Source: a virus
DNA length: 30,543 nucleotides
Strand: one strand, 5' to 3'
Virus record (IMG/VR): IMGVR_UViG_3300022693_000780
Coordinates: 1-30,543 of that record
The notes beneath the pieces were generated by a model. It was not told the origin of the DNA, did not search any database, and saw nothing but the letters and a program-made list of their open reading frames with translations. Shown piece after piece: positions 2,851-27,777 of the stretch. Within the stretch, counting starts at the first letter, position 1, and each line of letters starts with the position of its first letter. Position numbers and translations under genes: made by a program.

Positions 2851-3855
2851 TTATTCCCGCTTCAAAACTATTCCCTTCTTGTCGGCTTCTGCCTCAATCT
2901 TCCGGGCTAATGCAAAATCGTCTTTATCATAAGCATTATCCAGTTTTCTTTGTAGAGCAGATGAGCCACCAGTTAATGACGAACCTTCCAGATCATCATC
3001 AATGGCTGCTTTGTTACGGGGCTTATTTTTAATAATCACTGTTTTGTTTAATGCGCCAAGTTCCATCAAGGCAGCATCGGGATCTGTTTTAAACATGGTT
3101 ACAAGATCATGGAGTTCTTCAGGGTTTTTCCCCCATTTCGTAAACAGCAAATGAGCGTTATTACACCGTTTAATGATCTGGTCAGCTACCTTGTCCCCGG
3201 TGATCTGCCGGACAGCGGCTTCTCGATCCTCATAATCCTTGATGCCATATTTATCAACAAACGCATTCACACTTTCATAATGTTCATCTTTACGGGCCGC
3301 GACCTTCCGCATATCAGCGGCTATAGAGTCTGATTCTTTGGTTTGAGTTTGATTTTCAGCGAACCGTTCAGCTATTCGCGCATCAATTCTGGCGTTGTCA
3401 TAATCGAGTAATGCCGTTTTGTATTTATCATCTTCTTCAAAGAGATCAAACTCTTCAGGCTTGGGTCGCACAGGGGTTTTAGTTTCTGTGTTCCCATCCT
3501 GACTGTGTTTATCTGCAAACTCTTTTAATTTTAAAAGCTCTTGAAGTTCAGCCGCTTTTTCTTCAGCAAGATCAGCCCGTTGGGACTCTTCGGCACGTTT
3601 TTTGCCGAGTTCGTTAATTCGTTTGCTGAATGAGTTACGGCCCCTCTTCTTTTGCTTATCATCTTCACCAGCAATGCCTATCTCAATTTCCGCATCTTCA
3701 GGCTTGTCACCTTCAGACTCTTCAGACGAATCTGCGCTAGATTCATCGGTATCGGATTCCTCATCCTGGTCTAAATCTTCAACAACTTCTTCTGTCTCAG
3801 TTGAGGTTTCCTCAGTTTCGATTTCTTCGCTGGTTTCAATGGTTTCTTCGTTCAT
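2851..3855 (-). CDS. Scaffolding protein (P22 gp8-like by position and composition)
   Basis: 334 aa. The first ~65 residues are almost entirely Glu, Asp, Ser and Thr; this is followed by a basic patch (KQKKRGRNSFSKRINELGKKR) and a long helical coiled-coil-like region to the end, finishing with 'KKGIVLKRE'. This low-complexity acidic head and helical body is typical of phage scaffolds, which nucleate procapsid assembly by contacting the coat N-arm and are then released. Size (P22 gp8 is 303 aa) and position immediately before the coat gene agree. There is no protease-like motif, so a re-usable P22-like scaffold is more likely than a self-cleaving one. Confidence 0.8.
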   Translation of the reverse strand: MNEETIETSEEIETEETSTETEEVVEDLDQDEESDTDESSADSSEESEGDKPEDAEIEIGIAGEDDKQKKRGRNSFSKRINELGKKRAEESQRADLAEEKAAELQELLKLKEFADKHSQDGNTETKTPVRPKPEEFDLFEEDDKYKTALLDYDNARIDARIAERFAENQTQTKESDSIAADMRKVAARKDEHYESVNAFVDKYGIKDYEDREAAVRQITGDKVADQIIKRCNNAHLLFTKWGKNPEELHDLVTMFKTDPDAALMELGALNKTVIIKNKPRNKAAIDDDLEGSSLTGGSSALQRKLDNAYDKDDFALARKIEAEADKKGIVLKRE

Positions 3856-11522: not shown

Positions 11523-11988
11523 TTGGTTCAACAATAGTCCGTTTAATTTCAGTTATCTTTAATTCGCCTGTATGTTCGTGTCGTTCCTTAAACATTCCCA
11601 AATTCTTTCCTGCTAGTTCAATTCCTTTAAACATTGGGCTGGCTTGAAAAGTATATTCTCCTATCTCCTTTCCTTCCTTATCCATCACTGGAGTGTGTTG
11701 CATGCAACGCTCGATACCTTCTTTCAAATTGGTTAAAACCCAGTCTTGGTCGATGTGACACCGTTTTGAGGATGCTTCCATTGCTTCCAAGATTGCCGCC
11801 GCCACTCCCGGCTTTTTCTTTAATACTGAACCCCTGTTATTTGCTACCTCATACGAACAGTCATAGACTTTCTGGTAGGCTTCGGTCGCATTTCGGCTGA
11901 TGGTGTATTCATCAACAAATGCTTGATGCCGGTCGGATAATTCTAAATAGGTTTCTGTATATTCTTCTTCTGTGGGTTCTTCTTCCAT
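11491..11988 (-). CDS. terS: Terminase small subunit
   Basis: 165 aa. An N-terminal helix-turn-helix region, 'LSDRHQAFVDEYTISRNATEAYQKVYD' (about 16-43), followed by 'ANNRGSVLKKKPGVAAAI', is typical of phage terminase small subunits that recognise the packaging site and stimulate TerL. The C-terminus is a helix plus a polar tail (EPNDNNTRNTDS). The gene overlaps terL by about 30 bp and its ATG overlaps the stop of the small basic gene upstream (TAATG). A packaging (pac) site often lies within or near this gene; I saw no diagnostic repeat. Confidence 0.85.
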   Translation of the reverse strand: MEEEPTEEEYTETYLELSDRHQAFVDEYTISRNATEAYQKVYDCSYEVANNRGSVLKKKPGVAAAILEAMEASSKRCHIDQDWVLTNLKEGIERCMQHTPVMDKEGKEIGEYTFQASPMFKGIELAGKNLGMFKERHEHTGELKITEIKRTIVEPNDNNTRNTDS

Positions 11989-12089
11989 TATTTCCTTTTC
12001 GGCTTCCTTGCTTTCCTGCGTGTTCCGTTCCTGGGTGGTTTCCTGGTTCCGTTGCTTACGTTATGAGAACTCTTTACATCTCTTGCCAT
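11988..12089 (-). CDS. Tiny basic protein upstream of terS
   Basis: A 33-codon frame (MARDVKSSHNVSNGTRKPPR, then an Arg/Lys-rich end). About half the residues are Lys, Arg or Asn. ATG 12089 has a good 'AAGGAG' site 6 nt upstream, and its stop TAA shares a base with the terS ATG. The strong ribosome-binding site and exact coupling argue that it is translated. It could bind DNA or RNA or simply be a coupling leader for terS. No family recognised. Confidence 0.6.
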   Translation of the reverse strand: MARDVKSSHNVSNGTRKPPRNGTRRKARKPKRK

Positions 12090-12099
12090 TTGAATCTCC

Positions 12100-12666
12100 T
12101 TATCCTAAGTGTGAAAAACTTCCCGTTGATTGGCTAATCGTAAATGCCTCACTTGTTTCAAAGAACTCATCCCCTCCTACATCCGTAACCGTTATCACCT
12201 GATCGCCGTTATATCCTGCGGCTCCCGCGGTAAACCCTGAAATAGTCACGGTCTGCCCAACACTCACAATCGTGCCACTAAAATTAAATCGTGCTATACC
12301 AGCCACATCCGGAGAATCTATAACCGAGCTGATAGGCGTAGAAATAGTCGTGAAAATCGTTTCAGTAACCTCAAACCGAATTGAACCGGCTTTAATCTGT
12401 CTTGCTTCTCCTGTACTGGCATTATTGAGATTGGCAAAAACATTCCAAAGCCCTACACTCAACAGGGCAGTGTCTGCTGAAGTCAAAAGGCCGGCCCATT
12501 GGAAAGAATTTTCAGGGTCAACCTCTAATTGGCGCACAATTGTGGCATCATCCTTAATATGCTGTTTCACATAAATGGTAGCAGTGAATCCCTCAATAGA
12601 TTCGCCATCACGGTCAAAAGTGATCGGTAAGCTACCCCCCTGTGCTATTGATTCAACTTTAGCCAC
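12100..12666 (-). CDS. Virion protein with a module shared with the 562-aa tail protein
   Basis: 188 aa if started at GTG 12666, which overlaps the stop of the preceding gene by 8 bp (GTGGCTAA) and has 'GGGGG' upstream. The open frame continues to 12795, but that extension is antiparallel in character to the neighbouring gene's frame and looks non-coding. The N-terminal part (ESIAQGGSLPITFDRDGESI, WAGLLTSADTALLSVGLW) is a beta-sandwich-like region. The C-terminal 60 residues, 'ARFNFSGTIVSVGQTVTISG' through 'FTISQSTGSFS', match a module in the protein at 13529-15217. Probably a tail or head accessory protein; exact role unknown. Confidence 0.65.
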   Translation of the reverse strand: MAKVESIAQGGSLPITFDRDGESIEGFTATIYVKQHIKDDATIVRQLEVDPENSFQWAGLLTSADTALLSVGLWNVFANLNNASTGEARQIKAGSIRFEVTETIFTTISTPISSVIDSPDVAGIARFNFSGTIVSVGQTVTISGFTAGAAGYNGDQVITVTDVGGDEFFETSEAFTISQSTGSFSHLG

Positions 12667-18862: not shown

Positions 18863-19244
18863 AAAGAATGTCCTGGTCCTTTGTCGGGTCGATATCAACA
18901 TGGATAAACAAACTTCTCACACCTACCCTACGAAACAGCCGGCAGAGAACAGGAAGGAGGGTCATTCTCTTATGGCTCTGAGTGCAAGAGATATCTACAG
19001 CATGACCGCTAAGGTGAGCAGAGAATACGTTCCCCCCTTCAGCCTCGTTATGCTTGGCGCATCGACAACCAGAAGTAATATTGATTGGATTGCCAATTTC
19101 ATCCCGGACTTGTTGAAGTCGATTGACCAGCAGTAGACTTATAGAATCCGATCCACACCCACACCGGCAAGCGAATTCATCACGGTAAAAATTATCGGAA
19201 AGTTTTTCTCGGGTAGGATTTGTGCCAGTCTCAGACAAAGACAA
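18852..19244 (-). CDS. M15-family D,D-endopeptidase (endolysin candidate)
   Basis: 130 aa. The M15 zinc-peptidase core is visible: 'NITSGCRCAKHNEAEGG' followed by 'SAHLSGHAVDI' (His 77, Asp 84 as zinc ligands, about residues 75-85) and 'FIHVDID' (His 115). Such phage enzymes cut peptidoglycan cross-links at lysis. The start is TTG at 19244, chosen because 'GAGGAG' lies 9 nt upstream and no ATG is available before the domain. It is the first gene after the candidate late promoter. No signal peptide, so a holin would be needed; none is adjacent, and the two-helix peptide at 23934-24104 is one distant candidate. Confidence 0.8.
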   Translation of the reverse strand: MSLSETGTNPTREKLSDNFYRDEFACRCGCGSDSISLLLVNRLQQVRDEIGNPINITSGCRCAKHNEAEGGNVFSAHLSGHAVDISCTQSHKRMTLLPVLCRLFRRVGVRSLFIHVDIDPTKDQDILYVD

Positions 19245-19292
19245 TATTTGTTACTCCTCGTTAGAAAGGATACAAAATGTTCTCTGTTATGA

Positions 19293-19321
19293 AATATAAG
19301 TCAAATAAACTGAGAATGCAA
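19293..19321 (-). promoter_or_regulatory. Candidate late promoter (minus strand)
   Basis: Minus-strand TTGCAT (19321-19316), 17-bp spacer, TATATT (19298-19293), about 50 bp upstream of the endopeptidase start. It matches the sigma70 pattern well and precedes an uninterrupted run of late genes. It lies between a palindrome at 19327-19341 and the gene. Confidence 0.55.
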
Positions 19322-19326
19322 CAATT

Positions 19327-19341
19327 ATTGTCACTGACAAT
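19327..19341. promoter_or_regulatory. 15-bp palindrome beside the late promoter
   Basis: ATTGTCA-C-TGACAAT is a perfect inverted repeat ending 6 bp upstream of the candidate -35 box, the usual place for an activator (or repressor) site. Related AT-rich repeats surround it: AACAATTATTGT occurs at 19320-19331 and again at 19375-19386, with a partial copy at 19338. Confidence 0.5.
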
Positions 19342-19362
19342 TATGGGTAAGGTGTATAGATA

Positions 19363-19378
19363 TGTTTCACGTGGAACA
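19363..19378. promoter_or_regulatory. parS site (chromosomal ParB-binding sequence)
   Basis: TGTTTCACGTGGAACA, read on the minus strand as TGTTCCACGTGAAACA, is an exact match to the bacterial parS consensus TGTTNCACGTGAAACA. ParB loads on such sites as a CTP-dependent clamp and slides outward for kilobases. No parA or parB gene is in this window. The site is 42 bp upstream of the candidate late -35 box, so a ParB clamp sliding from it would meet that promoter. That host ParB binds is an inference. Confidence 0.8.
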
Positions 19379-19403
19379 ATTATTGTTAGTTTTTAGGGCA
19401 AAC

Positions 19404-19443
19404 GGGGTTGGCAGACTCGTATTTGAGCCTAAAGGCCAACCCC
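19404..19443. other. 9-bp stem hairpin in the late control region
   Basis: GGGGTTGGC (19404-19412) pairs perfectly with GCCAACCCC (19435-19443) across a 22-nt loop. No T-run follows on either strand, so it is not a simple terminator. It could be a transcript processing or protein-binding structure at the end of the early transcript. Confidence 0.45.
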
Positions 19444-19486
19444 TACCATTGCATCTGCAGCGAACAACGGCTTGCCTATTTAGTCA

Positions 19487-19726
19487 CTAACTTGCTTTGT
19501 GCATTTCTGCGGTTTCTGTGTCGGCGTGCATGACGTTTAAAACATGAACACCAGAATCATCAGCATCAAAGATGTCTTGGAGAAGCTTCCTAATTCGTGT
19601 CTCGATGCTGAGCTTTTTCCACCGAGAAGGTGTATATCCTAAATGCTTCGCAGCCTGCTTTTCATCAGTCGATAGTTTTTTCTTCGTCTTGTAATTTGTT
19701 TTGATCAATACGCAATAAGATTCCAT
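19487..19726 (-). CDS. Hypothetical protein, last early gene
   Basis: 79 aa from ATG 19726, chosen over an upstream TTG (19765) because 'AAAGGA' lies 8 nt before the ATG. Sequence MESYCVLIKTNYKTKKKLST, then 'KQAAKHLGYTPSRWKKLSIETRIRKLL' and an acidic end. The middle has an HTH-like spacing (AAKHLGYTPSRWKKL) and basic residues, so DNA binding is possible; as the last gene before the late promoter it could be a late regulator. Both ideas are inference; no family is recognised. Confidence 0.55.
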   Translation of the reverse strand: MESYCVLIKTNYKTKKKLSTDEKQAAKHLGYTPSRWKKLSIETRIRKLLQDIFDADDSGVHVLNVMHADTETAEMHKAS

Positions 19727-20389: not shown

Positions 20390-20592
20390 TCCATTTCCTC
20401 GATTCGTTTTAACGCCGCATCTAACTGAAAATTGAGTTTGGCGTTTTCTTTGGCAATTTTAGCAATCACATGAGTGTCCCTATCCACCGTTGCTATGAGG
20501 CATATTATTTCATCAAAACTAAAAACTCCTGTAGATTCCCAATCCTTCTTTAGCTTCTCAAACTCTTCATCGGTCAATGGTTCGTTCATCAT
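20386..20592 (-). CDS. Small helical hypothetical protein
   Basis: 68 aa, MMNEPLTDEEFEKLKKDWES, ending in a Lys/Glu/Leu helix (AKIAKENAKLNFQLDAALKR). The leader is 'AAAAGGAGAG' directly before two ATG codons; the second gives better spacing. A coiled-coil or partner protein is likely; no family recognised. It follows the replication gene by 58 bp. Confidence 0.6.
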   Translation of the reverse strand: MMNEPLTDEEFEKLKKDWESTGVFSFDEIICLIATVDRDTHVIAKIAKENAKLNFQLDAALKRIEEME

Positions 20593-20650
20593 TCTCTCCT
20601 TTTATAGATTAACTAACATTTACAATCTTACAAAATCATCCCTCTATCAT

Positions 20651-21664
20651 TTAGGGCGGGGCAATACAGAAATCCACCAGCATACCGTTGCCAGATACTT
20701 CCTTCAAAAATAGCTCTATCATTTCTCGGTAGTTTTCAATCATCATCTTCCTAGTAATCTGATTCGAACAAGCAATAAGCAGGATACCACTCTCAAGGCT
20801 TATCGGGTATGAAGATTCAAACGATAAGTAGCTTTCAGCCGATACCTGAGACTTCACCATTTCAAGGCAATCAGACCATAGTTTTTCTAGGGCAGGGTCA
20901 GTGGGTTCTCGGGGATTAGGTGGATCCGGTGGCTCGCCGGGTTCAGGTGGTGGTGCTTCCTGGGGAATATAGTCCTGCCAATTGTTAAACCAGGTCGATC
21001 CGTTCTTCCAGTTCAGGTCTTTAAAGCCGTTGTGACGGTCATTACTCACTGATTGTTGATAGTTTTCTATGGCAAGATCATAGTTTTCAATATCTTCTGG
21101 CTTTTTGATACTAGCATTCCAGTGTTTCATTGCGGCCTTATGTCCGTCTTTCTTACCCGGATAGGTTTTCCATCGGTTTTCAAAGGCTTCCTGTTTTTCT
21201 TTTTCCCAAAGTGAATCCCCTTGTTTATTGTTTGAAGAAGAAGATGAAGACTGAAGACTGAAGACAGAAGAGTTGGAATTTGGTTGAACCAAATTTGAAC
21301 CACCCTTGAAATTTCGCTTGATTTGCCTATTTTCTGCTGATTTCTTCCCGGCTTGGCTCGATTTTTCCCGCCATTCGTCTTGTTTTTGGAGTTCTTTTTC
21401 TAGTCGAGGGTGAACGAGCCGGCGCGGGTCAGTAGCCATCGGAACGAAACAATCCATGACCTGAGAAGGCACCCCGTTTTCATTTGAATACCCAGGCAGG
21501 AGCCTTATAATTTTATCAGGATCAGCAGGGATTGAGCCTTGAATCCAGCAATTAGAAAGGAGGGTGATATAAACCCCGCGCTCCTCAAATGTCATGGAAA
21601 TGACGTTCTCATCGGACAGGAAATCGCCAGGGTAAAACTGGAATGCAGGGGATTTATTGTTCAT
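20651..21664 (-). CDS. Replication initiation protein: DUF1376 plus DnaA domain I-like end
   Basis: 337 aa. Residues 1-105 are a DUF1376 domain ('FQFYPGDFLSDENVISMTFE', 'ERGVYITLLSNCW'), a winged-helix-like fold of phage replication initiators. A Ser/Asn/Gly-rich linker (about 105-160) and a middle region 'RWKTYPGKKDGHKAAMKHW' follow. After a Pro-rich hinge, residues about 265-330 (LWSDCLEMVKSQVSAESYLSF, 'ILLIACSNQITRKMMIENYR') match DnaA domain I, which in DnaA contacts the DnaB helicase. So this protein likely binds the phage origin and loads host helicase. DNA-level repeats lie in the linker (see origin candidate). Confidence 0.75.
   Translation of the reverse strand: MNNKSPAFQFYPGDFLSDENVISMTFEERGVYITLLSNCWIQGSIPADPDKIIRLLPGYSNENGVPSQVMDCFVPMATDPRRLVHPRLEKELQKQDEWREKSSQAGKKSAENRQIKRNFKGGSNLVQPNSNSSVFSLQSSSSSSNNKQGDSLWEKEKQEAFENRWKTYPGKKDGHKAAMKHWNASIKKPEDIENYDLAIENYQQSVSNDRHNGFKDLNWKNGSTWFNNWQDYIPQEAPPPEPGEPPDPPNPREPTDPALEKLWSDCLEMVKSQVSAESYLSFESSYPISLESGILLIACSNQITRKMMIENYREMIELFLKEVSGNGMLVDFCIAPP
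21234..21302. repeat. Candidate replication origin: iteron-like repeats and a 19-bp palindrome
   Basis: Within the linker of the replication gene the plus strand has three tandem TGAAGAC units (about 21245-21266) preceded by GAA-rich DNA, then AATTTGGTT-G-AACCAAATT (21277-21295), and a direct repeat TTGAACCA (21284 and 21295). Lambda-type phages put iterons in the same relative place of the initiator gene. The Ser-rich coding may explain some of the tandem repeats. Confidence 0.45.
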
Positions 21665-23350: not shown

Positions 23351-23351
23351 A

Positions 23352-23375
23352 GAATAGCCTATAAAATAGGCATTC
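23352..23375. repeat. Hairpin within attP left arm
   Basis: GAAT-A-GCCTAT AAA ATAGGC-ATTC forms a 10-bp stem with one bulge, between the left arm repeats and the core. No T-run follows. It may bind an accessory factor or terminate weakly. Confidence 0.4.
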
Positions 23376-23409
23376 TCAAAAAGCTAAGTCGTTATATTTA
23401 AATGTTTTG

Positions 23410-23496
23410 ATTGATTTAACAGGAAGGATGGTGCCGATGGGGAGAGTCGAACCACCCCACCAGCACTACCTTGTAACTCCTTACTAAATCAATCGT
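23410..23496. other. attP core: tRNA 3' end with flanking inverted repeats
   Basis: Minus strand 23451-23429 reads as the end of a tRNA: T-loop TTCGACT, CTCCC, acceptor half CATCGGC, A, CCA. The T-stem partner (GGTGG) does not pair properly with CTCCC and no 5' half (GCCGATG) is present, so it is a fragment, not a tRNA gene. It restores a host tRNA (perhaps Leu or Thr type) on integration. GATTGATTTA at 23411-23420 and TAAATCAATC near 23484-23493 flank the core as a 10-bp inverted repeat. Confidence 0.65.
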
Positions 23497-23522
23497 TACA
23501 GCCATTTTGATAACGCTAAAAA

Positions 23523-23918
23523 CTACTTTGTCCACGCTTTGTCCACGCCAATCAATTCCGGGTTCTCGTAAATGTTGCCGATGATTTCCCAAGACTCATT
23601 TATTCCTGCCATCCCCATACCACCTTTATCATCTCTATGAAATCTCCAAGCCGCATCATTTGGATACCATTTAATCTCAAATAAGTATTTATGTGAATCA
23701 TGTTTAAGAACATCCCCCTCATAAATCTCTTTGCCGTTTTTATCTTTCAGCCCGGTGTATTGGACAACCACAACACGCTCTAAAGCCTCTTTTTTTGTAA
23801 TAAAATTCCAATTCATTCCATTTTTGAATGCAAAATCATAAATGCTTGTTTCGGTTCTTCCATCAATCAACCAAGACTTTTCCAATAAACCCCAAAATCT
23901 AAACTTAATCTCCCGCAT
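23523..23918 (-). CDS. YopX family phage protein
   Basis: 131 aa from the second ATG (23918), which leaves 7 nt after 'GAGGAGG'; the first ATG (23924) is one base from it. The family signature is complete: start 'MREIKFRFWG', 'VVVQYTGLKDKNGKEIYEGD' near 70-90, and 'SWEIIGNIYENPEL' near the end. YopX proteins are common in phage early regions and have no established biochemical role. The last codons overlap integrase arm repeats. Confidence 0.85.
   Translation of the reverse strand: MREIKFRFWGLLEKSWLIDGRTETSIYDFAFKNGMNWNFITKKEALERVVVVQYTGLKDKNGKEIYEGDVLKHDSHKYLFEIKWYPNDAAWRFHRDDKGGMGMAGINESWEIIGNIYENPELIGVDKAWTK
23527..23548. repeat. Right arm-type repeat pair of attP
   Basis: TTTGTCCACGC occurs twice in perfect tandem (23527-23537, 23538-23548). 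It overlaps the last codons of the YopX-family gene, giving its C-terminus 'VDKAWTK'. Together with 23331-23350 it brackets the tRNA-like core. Confidence 0.6.
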
Positions 23919-23933
23919 CCTCATACCTCCTCT

Positions 23934-24104
23934 TTATATAAATATTATGATCGCCGGTATAAAAAATAAGGCAGAGAAAAAAACCTTACCAGAATGGTAT
24001 TGAATGAATACTTCCCCGCAAAAAATTTCCATAAAAACCAGCGAAACCAAAGAACAAATAATGCCCACTGGAAGAGTCAATATATAGGTTGAAATATTCA
24101 TCAT
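23934..24104 (-). CDS. Two-helix membrane peptide coupled to integrase
   Basis: A 56-codon frame (MMNISTYILTLPVGIICSLV... ending FIPAIIIFI) with two hydrophobic segments, residues about 5-29 and 42-56, and a short polar link. ATG 24104 overlaps the integrase stop (ATGA) and has 'GGGAGGGGG' upstream. Two-helix peptides of this size can be holins or superinfection-exclusion proteins; neither is shown. Expression would follow that of integrase. Confidence 0.6.
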   Translation of the reverse strand: MMNISTYILTLPVGIICSLVSLVFMEIFCGEVFIQYHSGKVFFSALFFIPAIIIFI

Positions 24105-25093
24105 CGCCCCCTCCCAACACAGGCGAAAGCCTCTATTAATTGATCATCGTATGGCTTGATATATCCAGCCGTTAATTTCGATCCCGGAGCATGTGAAAGC
24201 ATTCTACCGATCAGCGTTTCACTGTAGCCATTTTTGCCCATATCCGAAGCTACGAACCGGCGCAGATACTTGGAGCCATAACCAGAGAAGCCAGCCTTTT
24301 TGAATGCCCTGATTATTTCCTTTGATACCTTGTCGTTTTCAATGCTAGGGAAAAGTAAAGCGTTGGGGTCCAGGTTGATAGGTAGGCTATTAAACTCCGC
24401 TTGAAGCTCTTTGCAGATAGAAATATGAATATCTATTTTGGTTTTCCCGCGCTTGCTATTGATCCATCCAGACTTAACCTCGAACTGCCTTAACCCGGTC
24501 ACATCGGAGATATCTAGGGCGGTGTATGCCATTACCCAATAGATAACAAGGTATCTAGCGGGAACTGAGAGGGCCGTTATTTTGATTTGATCAAAGGTCA
24601 GGGGGTGAAGTTCACCTTTTCGCTGGATATGCTCATATTGCGGCCGTGGCACTACAAAGGCTTTATCCACTGTCCGGAGCAGCATTTGAAAAACTATGAG
24701 TTCTTTGTCGATGGTATTGTGAACCGCTTGCAGTTTCCCCTGGTCATTCAACCCATAACGATACTCGATATATTCTGCAATCAAATCAATGTCCACATCA
24801 CGGGGACGGAACAGCCCAAAAAAAGGATAAAGGTGATTATCCAGAATCTCCTGGTTGCGCTGGATAATTTTCTTTTTTATTCTCAGGTTCTTGATTCGTT
24901 GTCGGATCGACTGAGGATGTATACCGTCTTTAAGGTCTTTCAGGATTTCTCCTAATTGTGCAGCGGCTTTCTTCTTTTCAAACTCGGTAGCATTTAATGG
25001 AACCTCAATAGACTCACCGTCCCATCTAAACTTAGACCAATAACGCCGTGGCCTTCCTTGCTTCCCTTTTTTCTTGGGCCTTAATCTCATCAT
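24101..25093 (-). CDS. int: Tyrosine recombinase (phage integrase), atypical active site
   Basis: 330 aa from ATG 25093, which has 'GGAGAG' 7 nt upstream and begins MMRLRPKKKGKQGRPRRYWS; a longer frame to 25162 has no ribosome-binding site. The basic N-terminus and 'LRIKKKIIQRNQEILDNHLY' are the arm- and core-binding parts. In the catalytic domain the Lys strand (RGKTKIDIHI), 'KYLRRFVAS' (Arg 278), 'MLSHAPGS' (His 301) and Tyr 311 (AGYIKP) are present, but the first catalytic Arg is Asp 194 (TALDISDV) and the box II His is Lys. It integrates the phage at the tRNA site next door. Confidence 0.85.
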   Translation of the reverse strand: MMRLRPKKKGKQGRPRRYWSKFRWDGESIEVPLNATEFEKKKAAAQLGEILKDLKDGIHPQSIRQRIKNLRIKKKIIQRNQEILDNHLYPFFGLFRPRDVDIDLIAEYIEYRYGLNDQGKLQAVHNTIDKELIVFQMLLRTVDKAFVVPRPQYEHIQRKGELHPLTFDQIKITALSVPARYLVIYWVMAYTALDISDVTGLRQFEVKSGWINSKRGKTKIDIHISICKELQAEFNSLPINLDPNALLFPSIENDKVSKEIIRAFKKAGFSGYGSKYLRRFVASDMGKNGYSETLIGRMLSHAPGSKLTAGYIKPYDDQLIEAFACVGRGR

Positions 25094-25164
25094 ATCGTTT
25101 CTCTCCATTGATTTATACTTGGAGAAATATAGCATGAGATTAGTGTTGGTTGCTTGAAGCATGA

Positions 25165-25404
25165 CTATTTATTGGATTCCGCTATCATGGCATCGGCAAC
25201 GACGTAAGCTCCCGCGGAAAGAAACTTCAGATCCTCACGGGATTTTTCAATGGTTGTATTGTCCCTTATTCCAACAATTAATCCCTGCATAGCCAATCCA
25301 GCCAGCCAATCGCGGCGTGTGATTCCTGCTATATCACCAGGGTGGGGAGGGTGACTTGCTTGTCTAGGATAAACTTGACCACCTGTATCTTTTTCTTCTG
25401 GCAT
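25165..25404 (-). CDS. Conserved phage hypothetical protein
   Basis: 79 aa with the well-known phage small-protein pattern 'GITRRDWLAGLAMQGL' (about 28-43) and 'AYVVADAMIAESNK' at the end. The N-terminus is Pro/His-rich and disordered. 'AGAAAGGAAATAATT' precedes ATG 25404. This family sits in early operons of many temperate phages near recombination genes; its role is unknown. Confidence 0.7.
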   Translation of the reverse strand: MPEEKDTGGQVYPRQASHPPHPGDIAGITRRDWLAGLAMQGLIVGIRDNTTIEKSREDLKFLSAGAYVVADAMIAESNK

Positions 25405-25429
25405 AATTATTTCCTTTCTCTATTTAAAG

Positions 25430-25616
25430 GTGAGCCAGGTCGGATTGGTTGCCGACCTGTTTGGAGGCTGTGGGTAGATGAAGCCCACGACAATTGACAG
25501 GTGCGCCTGTCCCGCTGGCTCGTTATTTGATGCGGATGCCCCTTGGGTGGGAGATTTTGCAAACTTCACCCAAGAGGATAGCCACTAGGCTACTTGGACT
25601 CGGTGCGATCCTGATA
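25430..25616. ncRNA. Candidate structured RNA, multi-stem
   Basis: This gene-free stretch is filled with perfect or near-perfect stems: closing stem GAGCCAG/CTGGCTC (25432-25438 with 25515-25521) around CAGGTCGG/CCGACCTG (25436-25459), GTGGG/CCCAC (25470-25488) and GACAGG/CCTGTC (25496-25511); then an 11-bp stem CCCCTTGGGTG/CACCCAAGAGG (25539-25577), and TAGCC/GGCTA near 25585-25598, and GGA-C-TCG/CGA-TCC near 25600-25616. The strand of the RNA is not certain; minus fits the operon. It is not a tRNA: no TTCRA T-loop. Function unknown. Confidence 0.5.
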
Positions 25617-25632
25617 GAAAACACCGCCGCTT

Positions 25633-25905
25633 TCATTTAAAGATTCTTTCAATTTGTGTGATTGCAGAACCATCTTTGATCTGTTCTCCAGTGTATAACA
25701 ATAATTTAATACCCATTTCAGTGGCAGAATTCCATTTCTCATAATCCTTGCCCATTGTTAAAGGGTTCCGGTTATGCCTTCCAGCGTTCCATCCACCACC
25801 CTGAACCTCTATTCCCCACCCATCCCGATAGAAGTCCAATAGCCACTTCCGATCAGGATGGAACTTGTACTGTCTCTGGAATTCAGGAATCCCAAAGGCT
25901 CTCAT
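25633..25905 (-). CDS. PD-(D/E)XK (VSR/DUF559-like) nuclease
   Basis: 90 aa from ATG 25905. Matches a phage nuclease family: 'YKFHPDRKWLLDFYRDGWGI' with Asp 24, 'EVQGGGWNAGRHNR' (Glu 33), 'DYEKWNSATEMGIKLLLYTG' and a closing helix. In phages such proteins are thought to act in recombination, with ERF upstream. Family members continue N-terminally with a helix, and the in-frame codons upstream (LEESLALQ before the Met) fit it; these would need a start at ATC 25938 behind 'GAGGTG', overlapping the previous gene. ATG 25905 has no ribosome-binding site. Confidence 0.75.
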   Translation of the reverse strand: MRAFGIPEFQRQYKFHPDRKWLLDFYRDGWGIEVQGGGWNAGRHNRNPLTMGKDYEKWNSATEMGIKLLLYTGEQIKDGSAITQIERIFK

Positions 25906-25925
25906 CTGAAGAGCAAGTGATTCTT

Positions 25926-26087
25926 CTAAGTGTGAGATACCGCACCTCTTTTATTTTCTTCAACGTATTCATCGTAAAGTTTTTCTATATCATCTTCATG
26001 CCAAACGTGCATACCGGGACACTCGTAGAAATCGCCGGCTAAATGCTCAAACTGCTGATCATCAATCCATTCTTCAAATGTAAGCAT
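25926..26087 (-). CDS. 53-aa acidic hypothetical protein
   Basis: Frame MLTFEEWIDDQQFEHLAGDF ... ending RGAVSHT, with 'AAGGAGGCGTG' upstream of ATG 26087, sharing one base with the ERF stop (TGATG). Acidic, with a Trp/His/Cys-containing centre (YECPGMHVWHEDD). No family recognised. It lies between ERF and the nuclease, so it may be a partner of one of them. Confidence 0.6.
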   Translation of the reverse strand: MLTFEEWIDDQQFEHLAGDFYECPGMHVWHEDDIEKLYDEYVEENKRGAVSHT

Positions 26088-26884
26088 CACGCCTCCTTAA
26101 TTGATTTTATTACCGCTTCATAATCTGAATTTAATATTTCTTCAATGCTATCAATCATAAATTCATCGAGGATTTGTTTTTGAGCTTCTGTCCCCATTTT
26201 TTTTGTAATAAACATTTTTTTGACCTGCATCTTTAATTCAGGGGATAAAGTGGTTCCGTCAGATATTTCAGTTCCATCAGGCAAAGGAATGTCTTGTTGT
26301 TTCTTTCCATTTGTCTTTAACTTTTCAATAGCTTTTTGATATTCTATTTCGGCGGCTTTCTGTCTTACTTCGTCCGTTTGCTTTTTATAGGCGGGATCAT
26401 TTTCTTCTAACTCTTTTTCGCCTGTTTCAATATGGAGTGTTTTTAAAATCGCATAACGTTGAGCATAGGAAATCGCTTTACCCGGTCCCTTGTCAGAGTC
26501 ATCACAGCCATAAGCCACCCAATCCTGTTCAAAAAAATCATCGGGTTCGTCAATATTTATCCATCGGAAAGTAACGTCCAAGCGTTCCCTATTGACTATT
26601 TGCTCTTTGCCGTAGTAGTCCACTTTTAAAGTTTCCGGCTTCATTTCCTTGAAGGTGGGAATAACATTTACTCCATGTTTAACTAGGAGGGGATGAACTA
26701 GGGAGGTCACATCATCGTGGCCTGTGACGGTGAACATCACTTCACCTTTTTTATTTTTAATGATCTTTTCTTTTTTAACGTATTCCCATTCAGCCATTAT
26801 CGCGTTTACACGCTGATGGATGTTTAGTTTCGTATCTCTCTTAAATACTTCCTTATCTTTCTCATCTTCTTTTTTCTTTTCCAT
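26087..26884 (-). CDS. erf: ERF family single-strand annealing protein
   Basis: 265 aa from ATG 26884 ('GGAGGG' 7 nt upstream); TTG 26890 is less likely. The ERF core runs from about residue 20 to 160, with 'NIHQRVNAIMAEWEYVKKE', 'VTSLVHPLLVKHGV', 'VTFRWINIDEP' and the signature 'DKGPGKAISYAQRYAILKTL'. ERF proteins (P22 Erf type) anneal complementary single strands and drive circularisation and repair of phage DNA. The C-terminal half is charged and helical, ending in an 'EEILNSDYEAVIKSIKEA' helix. A PD-(D/E)XK nuclease lies downstream. Confidence 0.9.
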   Translation of the reverse strand: MEKKKEDEKDKEVFKRDTKLNIHQRVNAIMAEWEYVKKEKIIKNKKGEVMFTVTGHDDVTSLVHPLLVKHGVNVIPTFKEMKPETLKVDYYGKEQIVNRERLDVTFRWINIDEPDDFFEQDWVAYGCDDSDKGPGKAISYAQRYAILKTLHIETGEKELEENDPAYKKQTDEVRQKAAEIEYQKAIEKLKTNGKKQQDIPLPDGTEISDGTTLSPELKMQVKKMFITKKMGTEAQKQILDEFMIDSIEEILNSDYEAVIKSIKEA

Positions 26885-26886
26885 TT

Positions 26887-26988
26887 TCAATCCCTCCAGA
26901 AATCAAATTTATGAATACCTAATAAATGAACGATTGCCCATGTAATGCAGGCTCCTCCTATCGTTCCTATAATTAATGCTTCAATCAT
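26887..26988 (-). CDS. 33-aa membrane peptide
   Basis: Frame MIEALIIGTIGGACITWAIV, then HLLGIHKFDFWRD. One hydrophobic helix (about 3-24) with a C-terminal charged tail. ATG 26988 has 'GGGAGGAGAAAG' upstream and overlaps the end of the preceding gene; its stop is 2 bp from the ERF start. Single-helix peptide; role unknown. Confidence 0.55.
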   Translation of the reverse strand: MIEALIIGTIGGACITWAIVHLLGIHKFDFWRD

Positions 26989-27237: not shown

Positions 27238-27501
27238 CTAACCACCCACCGCTACGCCGGGATTGCCTTCATCCGGTAGCATTTCATTTTCCTTTAAATC
27301 TGCTGCGCCCCTTTCGTTATCAATCTCTCCATAAATCCAGGCGATAGCCTCATCTGCCGAATTAACCAAGGAATGAAAACATTCAGTATCCCAATAAGGA
27401 TCGGCAATATTTATTGCGTCTTCCGGATCGGATTTTTGCAGTTCCATCATAAGGGTTGCTATGTTCGTTTTAACTTCAATTAATGCTTCGATTCTGTTCA
27501 T
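27238..27501 (-). CDS. First full gene of the early leftward operon
   Basis: 87 aa, MNRIEALIEVKTNIATLMME, with 'NIADPYWDTECFHSLVNSAD' and 'AIAWIYGEID' and a polar Gly-rich tail. ATG 27501 has 'GGAGG' 7 nt upstream. No family recognised. It is preceded by the leader region with the attenuator-like terminator. Confidence 0.6.
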   Translation of the reverse strand: MNRIEALIEVKTNIATLMMELQKSDPEDAINIADPYWDTECFHSLVNSADEAIAWIYGEIDNERGAADLKENEMLPDEGNPGVAVGG

Positions 27502-27504
27502 TGT

Positions 27505-27672
27505 TTAGCCTCCAGGCAAAATATGGGTTGACATATCCGTATAGATATGAGACAAAAAAAAGGCCACACGGCTGAGATTTCTGGAGAGAAATACCGTGTG
27601 GCCTTCATTTGAAGCTAGGGTGCTGGTTTCCCAACTCCTGTTGCTTTTTTTATTTGAATTAAATAATCTCAT
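27505..27672 (-). CDS. Possible 55-aa leader gene of the early operon
   Basis: Frame MRLFNSNKKSNRSWETSTLA ... ending STHILPGG, from ATG 27672 with a clean 'GGAGAG' 7 nt upstream, about 25 nt after the likely transcription start. Its stop falls between the Shine-Dalgarno and start of the next gene. A strong intrinsic terminator lies inside it, so it may act as a regulatory leader and not as a functional protein. The sequence is not like a known family. Confidence 0.4.
   Translation of the reverse strand: MRLFNSNKKSNRSWETSTLASNEGHTVFLSRNLSRVAFFLSHIYTDMSTHILPGG
27552..27605 (-). terminator. Strong intrinsic terminator or attenuator in the early leader
   Basis: Minus-strand AAGGCCACACGG (27605-27594) pairs with CCGTGTGGCCTT (27571-27560), followed by a run of eight T. 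The loop contains a second stem ATTTCT-CTCC-AGAAAT (27592-27577), so a CTCC tetraloop tops the structure. Transcripts from the promoter at 27702-27730 would stop here after about 145 nt unless read through. Confidence 0.75.
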
Positions 27673-27701
27673 TGAATTTCTCTCCGTAAAACTTAATCTT
27701 C

Positions 27702-27730
27702 AATATAAGCCGATTCGGATTGCCAGTCAA
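27702..27730 (-). promoter_or_regulatory. Leftward early promoter with operator-like palindrome
   Basis: Minus-strand TTGACT (27730-27725), 17-bp spacer, TATATT (27707-27702). The spacer carries CCGATTCGG (27710-27718), a 9-bp inverted repeat that is a good repressor operator candidate. Located opposite the repressor gene start, as in lambda-like control regions. Confidence 0.6.
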
Positions 27731-27777
27731 GCGAATTCAGCTTTTTAATTGAAAATAACTCATGGAGGATGAAAATA

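Follow-up and report, generated by a model that had tools for sequence, protein, structure and literature searches.

What fills the 228-nt gap between a nuclease gene and a small open reading frame (ORF) in the early operon of a P22-type podovirus? The window analyzed here is the whole of a 30.5-kb virus record (30,543 nt), with P22-like portal, scaffold, coat and terminase genes as well as genes for an Erf-like annealing protein and a tyrosine integrase. The genes to the left of about 27.7 kb are carried on the minus strand, in the order Erf, a 54-aa ORF, a DUF559-like nuclease, the gap, a 79-aa ORF and the integrase. Phage homologues of the nuclease are annotated as DUF559 or very-short-patch-repair endonucleases. 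The best sigma-70-like site ahead of this operon (Table 1) is weak, as the hits of the promoter scan are no more than expected by chance.

The original prediction, made from the letters alone, placed a stem-dense candidate RNA between the nuclease and the 79-aa gene, and these two minus-strand genes do flank the gap. It also held that no ORF or tRNA explains the stretch. In agreement with this, ARAGORN finds no tRNA or tmRNA in the window, and the gap contains no convincing ORF. The statement that the remaining gaps measure just a few bases is incorrect, with gaps of about 111 nt (11988-12100), 242 nt (19244-19487) and 171 nt (23351-23523) in the same genome.

Structure and stability of the gap RNA

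The minus strand of the gap has a minimum free energy of -84.5 kcal/mol over 241 nt, compared to -64.1 ± 4.8 kcal/mol for shuffled sequences (z -4.28, 0/200 dinucleotide shuffles). The z score for the plus strand is only -2.04. The first domain of the RNA (D1), folded alone, has a z score of -4.78 (0/200 shuffles). When both strands were scanned in 764 windows of 120 nt, the gap was among the most stable stretches after GC correction. Eight helices of 4-11 bp are found, arranged in two multibranched domains (D1 and D2, Table 1), and the description as stem-dense is apt. The predicted limits, 25430-25616, miss the 5′ end of the RNA, as the match to the covariance model reaches 25630. The RNA strand, which had not been named, is the minus strand, co-directional with the leftward early operon.

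Table 1. Features of the gap RNA and its surroundings, in window coordinates.
Feature	Position	Strand	Evidence or remarks
Sigma-70-like site, best match before the leftward early operon	27702-27730	-	10/12 consensus match
Erf	26087-26890	-	Erf-like annealing protein
Upstream gene, DUF559-like nuclease	25633-25905	-	phrog_503; stop codon 2 nt before D1
Whole RNA	25432-25630	-	two multibranched domains, D1 and D2; ~200 nt
Domain D1, four-way junction, helices P1-P4	25532-25630	-	covariance-model matches R1 and R2; fold z score; three-sequence covariation
P1, 5′ strand GCGG, pairs with CCGC 25532-25535	25627-25630	-	paired in 3/3 sequences; one G-C/G-U change
P2, CGGUG 25622-25626 with CACCG 25601-25605, loop UUUUCUAUCAGGAUCG	25601-25626	-	two pairs changed on both sides
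J2/3, single strand AGUCCAA	25594-25600	-	alignment; identical in G006, AGGCCGA in L112
P3, hairpin GUAGCC-UAGU-GGCUAU	25578-25593	-	two pairs changed on both sides; 100% paired
P4, long hairpin CCUCUUGGGUG ... CACCCAAGGGG	25539-25577	-	11 bp in the window, 9 bp in the model; both sides changed in three pairs
Domain D2, P5 GAGCC/GGCUC (25517-25521 with 25432-25436) closing P6, P7 and P8	25432-25521	-	alifold
P6, hairpin GACAGG-CGCA-CCUGUC	25496-25511	-	inside a 31-nt stretch at the D2 start that is identical in L112
P7, hairpin GUGGG...CCCAC	25470-25488	-	folds; an unrelated hairpin takes its place in L112
P8, hairpin AGGUCGG-CAACCAAU-CCGACCU	25437-25458	-	both sides changed in one pair; one G-C/G-U change
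Downstream small ORF, 79 aa	25165-25404	-	phrog_2201; start codon 27 nt after D2
Tyrosine integrase	24101-25162	-	phrog_1

The strand preference is also seen in consensus folding of the aligned homologues (see below). The alifold z score is -8.1 on the RNA strand and -4.3 on the opposite strand for the alignment fitted to the model, and -5.1 and -2.9, respectively, for a plain MAFFT alignment with no structure fit. Several helices of the minus strand contain G-U pairs. In D1, a short pseudoknot (GGA/UCC) between the J2/3 strand and the P2 loop is conceivable, and covariation lends it no support.

Homologues and covariation

Relatives of the neighboring proteins led to other IMG/VR phages, six of which were then searched with the element at the DNA level. 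One of these, G006 (IMG/VR 3300024265_000111), matches the start of the element with an E value of 2.7e-12 and carries D1 only, downstream of a gene for an SbcC-like ATPase. A search with this ATPase reached L112 (IMG/VR 3300023223_000221), where D1 and D2 are both present in the same order. The structure of D1 was derived from the folds of the window and G006, with L112 left out of the building, and a covariance model made from these two copies of D1 only finds D1 of L112 with a score of 62 bits (E 2.9e-13 over 306 kb).

The three-sequence alignment of D1 contains 24 pairs, and all 72 pair cells are standard, with none broken. Covariation in relatives had been proposed as a check, next to an Rfam search, and helices P2, P3 and P4 do covary, with seven of the 24 pairs changed on both sides. 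This level is equaled in 1/500 shuffles, and structures slid along the alignment are 41-52% paired; the count of double changes leans towards the model, since the alignment was fitted to the model's structure. Chance structure without function would fit the observation that three other stretches of this genome (19384-19503, 23384-23503 and 27521-27663) are as structured as the gap in the folding scan, but the compensatory changes among the homologues make this explanation hardly credible. D1 is a conserved RNA structure, and we hold this with high confidence.

D2 is available from two sequences, the window and L112, in which P5, P6 and P8 are 100% paired. One pair is changed on both sides, which shuffles match or exceed in 242/500 cases, and P6 is invariant and so provides no test of covariation. 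In column-shuffled consensus folding of the two sequences, D2 has a z score of -5.96 (0/300). D2 is probably a conserved RNA structure as well, the candidate being firm for D1 and weaker for D2.

A small protein gene could be read in the same stretch instead. A 37-codon ATG frame overlaps the stop codon of the nuclease (ATGA), a similar frame follows the ATPase of G006, and the aligned frames look alike (MKAAVFSIRIAPSPSSLVAILLG.. and MINSAAVSLIRSPPSPRSLVASLL..). However, non-synonymous changes far exceed synonymous ones in every frame (for example, 14 and 2 between the window and G006), L112 has no ATG, and across the element the frames are interrupted by stops and a 1-nt indel. We regard a protein-coding function as very improbable.

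A search of the window against Rfam 15, including GOLLD, ROOL, riboswitches and ribozymes, gives no matches at the gathering threshold, and none is found for 25100-26000 at E values up to 5. BLASTN of the region against phages and plasmids gives no credible match. With no Rfam match, two homologues and covariation in D1, the original proposal of a new structured RNA is upheld. It is a real structured RNA family, previously uncatalogued, with three members for D1 and two for D2. It adds to the structured RNAs already known from phages and falls into none of the existing families.

At present this is a narrow family, as a pattern scan of IMG/VR with AGTCCAAGNNGCCTAGTGG and GKCCRARNAGCCTWGTGGC returns G006 and L112 as the sole real copies. 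In four other records (L098, L100, L116 and L118) the letters of the pattern are present and the fold is absent. L098, a phage-like record of 8.7 kb, lacks the D1 fold and contains the 19-nt core AGTCCAAGGAGCCTAGTGG at 2927-2945 (minus strand), probably by chance. Searches based on Erf, of nuclease-bearing genomes and of integrase-bearing genomes give no extra copies, and the three-sequence model matches none of 79 other loci, most of them taken from phages that carry a nuclease of the same family; the collections searched may omit records very near the window's own genome.

GOLLD and ROOL are structured non-coding RNAs of phages and prophages that are supported by covariation (PMC12286853), a description that also applies to the gap RNA. 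They are much larger, as had been noted, with about 659 nt for ROOL env-120 and often more than 800 nt for GOLLD, compared to about 200 nt here, and they are often near tRNA islands (PMC12286853). In contrast, the gap RNA is located between protein genes, in a window with no tRNA, and matches no Rfam model.

Constant location and exchange of neighboring genes

The location of the RNA is the same in all three phages. It starts 0-8 nt past the stop codon of the upstream gene, a spacing of 19-27 nt separates its end from the following start codon, and the integrase is encoded two genes downstream. The genes around it are different. The upstream gene is the nuclease in the window and the SbcC-like ATPase in L112 and G006, and the small downstream ORFs (79, 68 and 74 aa) share no family. 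The integrases differ in type as well, with 21-22% identity, and those of the window and L112 are about 21-24% identical. The structural genes of the window and L112 are close, with 69% identity for the portal and 85% for the small terminase. The RNA is kept at 76% DNA identity, and homology stops near its borders. This comparison of three phages indicates that the RNA is a unit that is kept while its neighbors are exchanged, always ahead of the pair of small ORF and integrase. Free replacement of the stretch between relatives, which would speak against a conserved RNA, is not observed; the flanking genes have been swapped and the RNA retained. Phage module boundaries can thus hold RNA cassettes as well as genes, and gene-centered annotation misses such intercistronic RNAs.

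Two further phages, G001 and G002, have integrases 83-86% identical to that of the window and carry neither D1 nor D2. At the same boundary, G001 has a different strong hairpin (z -2.96) and G002 a different small junction (z -2.14). As shrunken versions of D1, the short element of G002 (E 0.62) and the hairpin of G001 (E 2.6) are below threshold, and both are excluded from the family because G006 holds D1 plus a copy of the G002 element.

These phages also bear on whether the conserved unit is a DNA element, such as attP, an arm-site region for the integrase, an origin or a single-strand DNA fold. The integrase gene is near and the inverted repeats are long, as would be expected. However, G001 and G002 have this integrase without D1 and D2, whereas phages with another integrase have the RNA. 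In addition, the strand bias and the G-U pairs fit an RNA, and the shared segment that resembles a tRNA 3′ end is located at 23429, about 2 kb off and outside the RNA. A function at the DNA level is accordingly quite improbable.

The unit may also be a self-cleaving ribozyme or a small mobile structured element, its ends marked by the closing stem GCGG..CCGC. In G006, D1 is followed at a distance of one gene by a short junction element of another type, likewise with a GCGG..CCGC closing stem, and the same short element follows a homologous gene in G002. Against this, no Rfam family, ribozymes included, is matched, and the elements are found at corresponding gene boundaries rather than being scattered. 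We consider this explanation improbable.

Possible roles of the RNA

The RNA fits between the stop codon of one gene and the ribosome-binding site of the next, and other strong structures are found at this boundary in G001 and G002. For these reasons a role in cis is favored. The RNA would be transcribed leftward, within a polycistronic early mRNA, and would separate the upstream recombination genes from the cassette of small ORF and integrase. By setting the processing, stability or translation of the mRNA, it may allow the integrase cassette to be expressed unlike the rest of the early operon. We give a probability of roughly 0.45 to this reading, that the RNA is a cis-acting intercistronic element marking off the small-ORF/integrase cassette in the early transcript. 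Its constant place ahead of this cassette suggests an RNA layer in integrase expression. Against a role in cis are the lack of D2 in G006 and the small number of sequences known (three).

An intrinsic terminator is not indicated, as there is no terminator-like site on the minus strand in this region and the sequence after D2, ACCUUUAAAUAG, has no U-tract. In the ensemble, the start site is unpaired about half of the time (0.42-0.65), and consequently no expression platform is evident. With no U-tract and a start site that is not clearly hidden, a plain terminator or a switch that masks the start site is less likely than an element for processing, stability or protein binding. A switch between P1 and a pairing of its 3′ strand with D2 was also considered; CCGC can pair with GCGG of D2, at a low ensemble probability (0.11, 0.04).

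The RNA resembles riboswitches and protein-binding mRNA leaders in that a junction of several helices comes right before a ribosome-binding site, and a junction is found close to the start codon in the three phages. It differs from them in that no expression platform can be identified and the downstream gene is not the same. As the downstream genes are not homologous, there is no single conserved target. Single intercistronic hairpins are well known in phage operons, for example the RNase III sites of T7 and sib of lambda, the latter concerned with integrase expression and located downstream of int. The gap RNA shares with them the presence of stem-loops between genes of a polycistronic early transcript. 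Unlike them, it consists of covarying multi-way junctions and is located upstream of the integrase.

As the main rival explanation, the RNA may be a non-coding RNA derived from the early transcript that acts in trans, binding host or phage RNA or protein, for example in counter-defense or takeover, with the adjacency to the integrase reflecting the order of modules. This is tentative, yet it deserves serious consideration. In its favor, the RNA persists as a unit through the replacement of both flanking genes. There are two elaborate domains, and long stretches are unpaired or identical, with 31 identical nt where D2 begins. On the other hand, the minus strand has no promoter-like site just upstream and no terminator after the RNA, and the leader-like fit, a few nucleotides from the stop codon and the ribosome-binding site, is found in all three phages. 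Because there is no conserved target gene and the RNA is independent of its neighbors, a trans-acting RNA stays nearly as likely as one acting in cis. A more specific version is rather unlikely, namely that P22-like environmental phages carry, at their integrase boundary, a phage RNA of a new class with a length of about 100 nt (D1) or 200 nt (D1 and D2), which forms an independent RNA cassette, is retained through exchange of integrase, small ORF and upstream gene, and acts in trans on the host or on the decision between lysis and lysogeny.

Other structured regions in these phages

Several other gaps in the same phages are structured, which makes this phage group a good place to seek intercistronic RNAs. 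The segment TTCGACTCTCCCCATCGGCACCATCCTTCCTGTTAAAT (window 23429-23466, minus strand) resembles a tRNA 3′ end and is identical in three phages sharing the integrase of the window (83-86% identical). It is likely the attP core, separate from the RNA, and points to the host tRNA, the one with the 3′ end TTCGACTCTCCCCATCGGCACCA.

A junction-like element, GGCAAGCCGUU..AAUGG-UA-GGGGUUGG..CCAACCCC, is present at 19400-19480 (minus strand) of the window and at 3288-3430 of L002, and a similar one, AGGCAAGCCGUUU..AAACGG-UA-GGGGCUG..CAGCCCC, follows the nuclease of G001. Elements of this type have no credible match in Rfam and are possibly a second RNA family of these phages. The palindromes AACAATAATTGTT and TTGTCAGTGACAA, which are operator-like, are located at 19290-19400 of the window, in the gap that precedes the lysis and late genes.

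The head of the early operon (window 27500-27740, minus strand) has a promoter-like site, with a hairpin and then a strong terminator, GGCCACACGG..CCGUGUGGCC with eight T, no more than about 120 nt downstream. This arrangement suggests an antitermination leader.

The short junction elements of G002 and G006 (L086 3499-3562 and L089 1170-1227) are closed by GCGGA..UCCGC and overlap the stop codon of homologous small genes (MDKxExDFRIED..). Their closing stem shows a swap of G-C to C-G. Ahead of a small ORF, the DNA identity between phages is 71-75% in a stretch that is partly untranslated (window 20585-20661, L002 3418-3500 and L086 7780-7862). Finally, the nuclease of G006 is followed by a terminator (L003 3382-3462) with its stem topped by a three-way junction.
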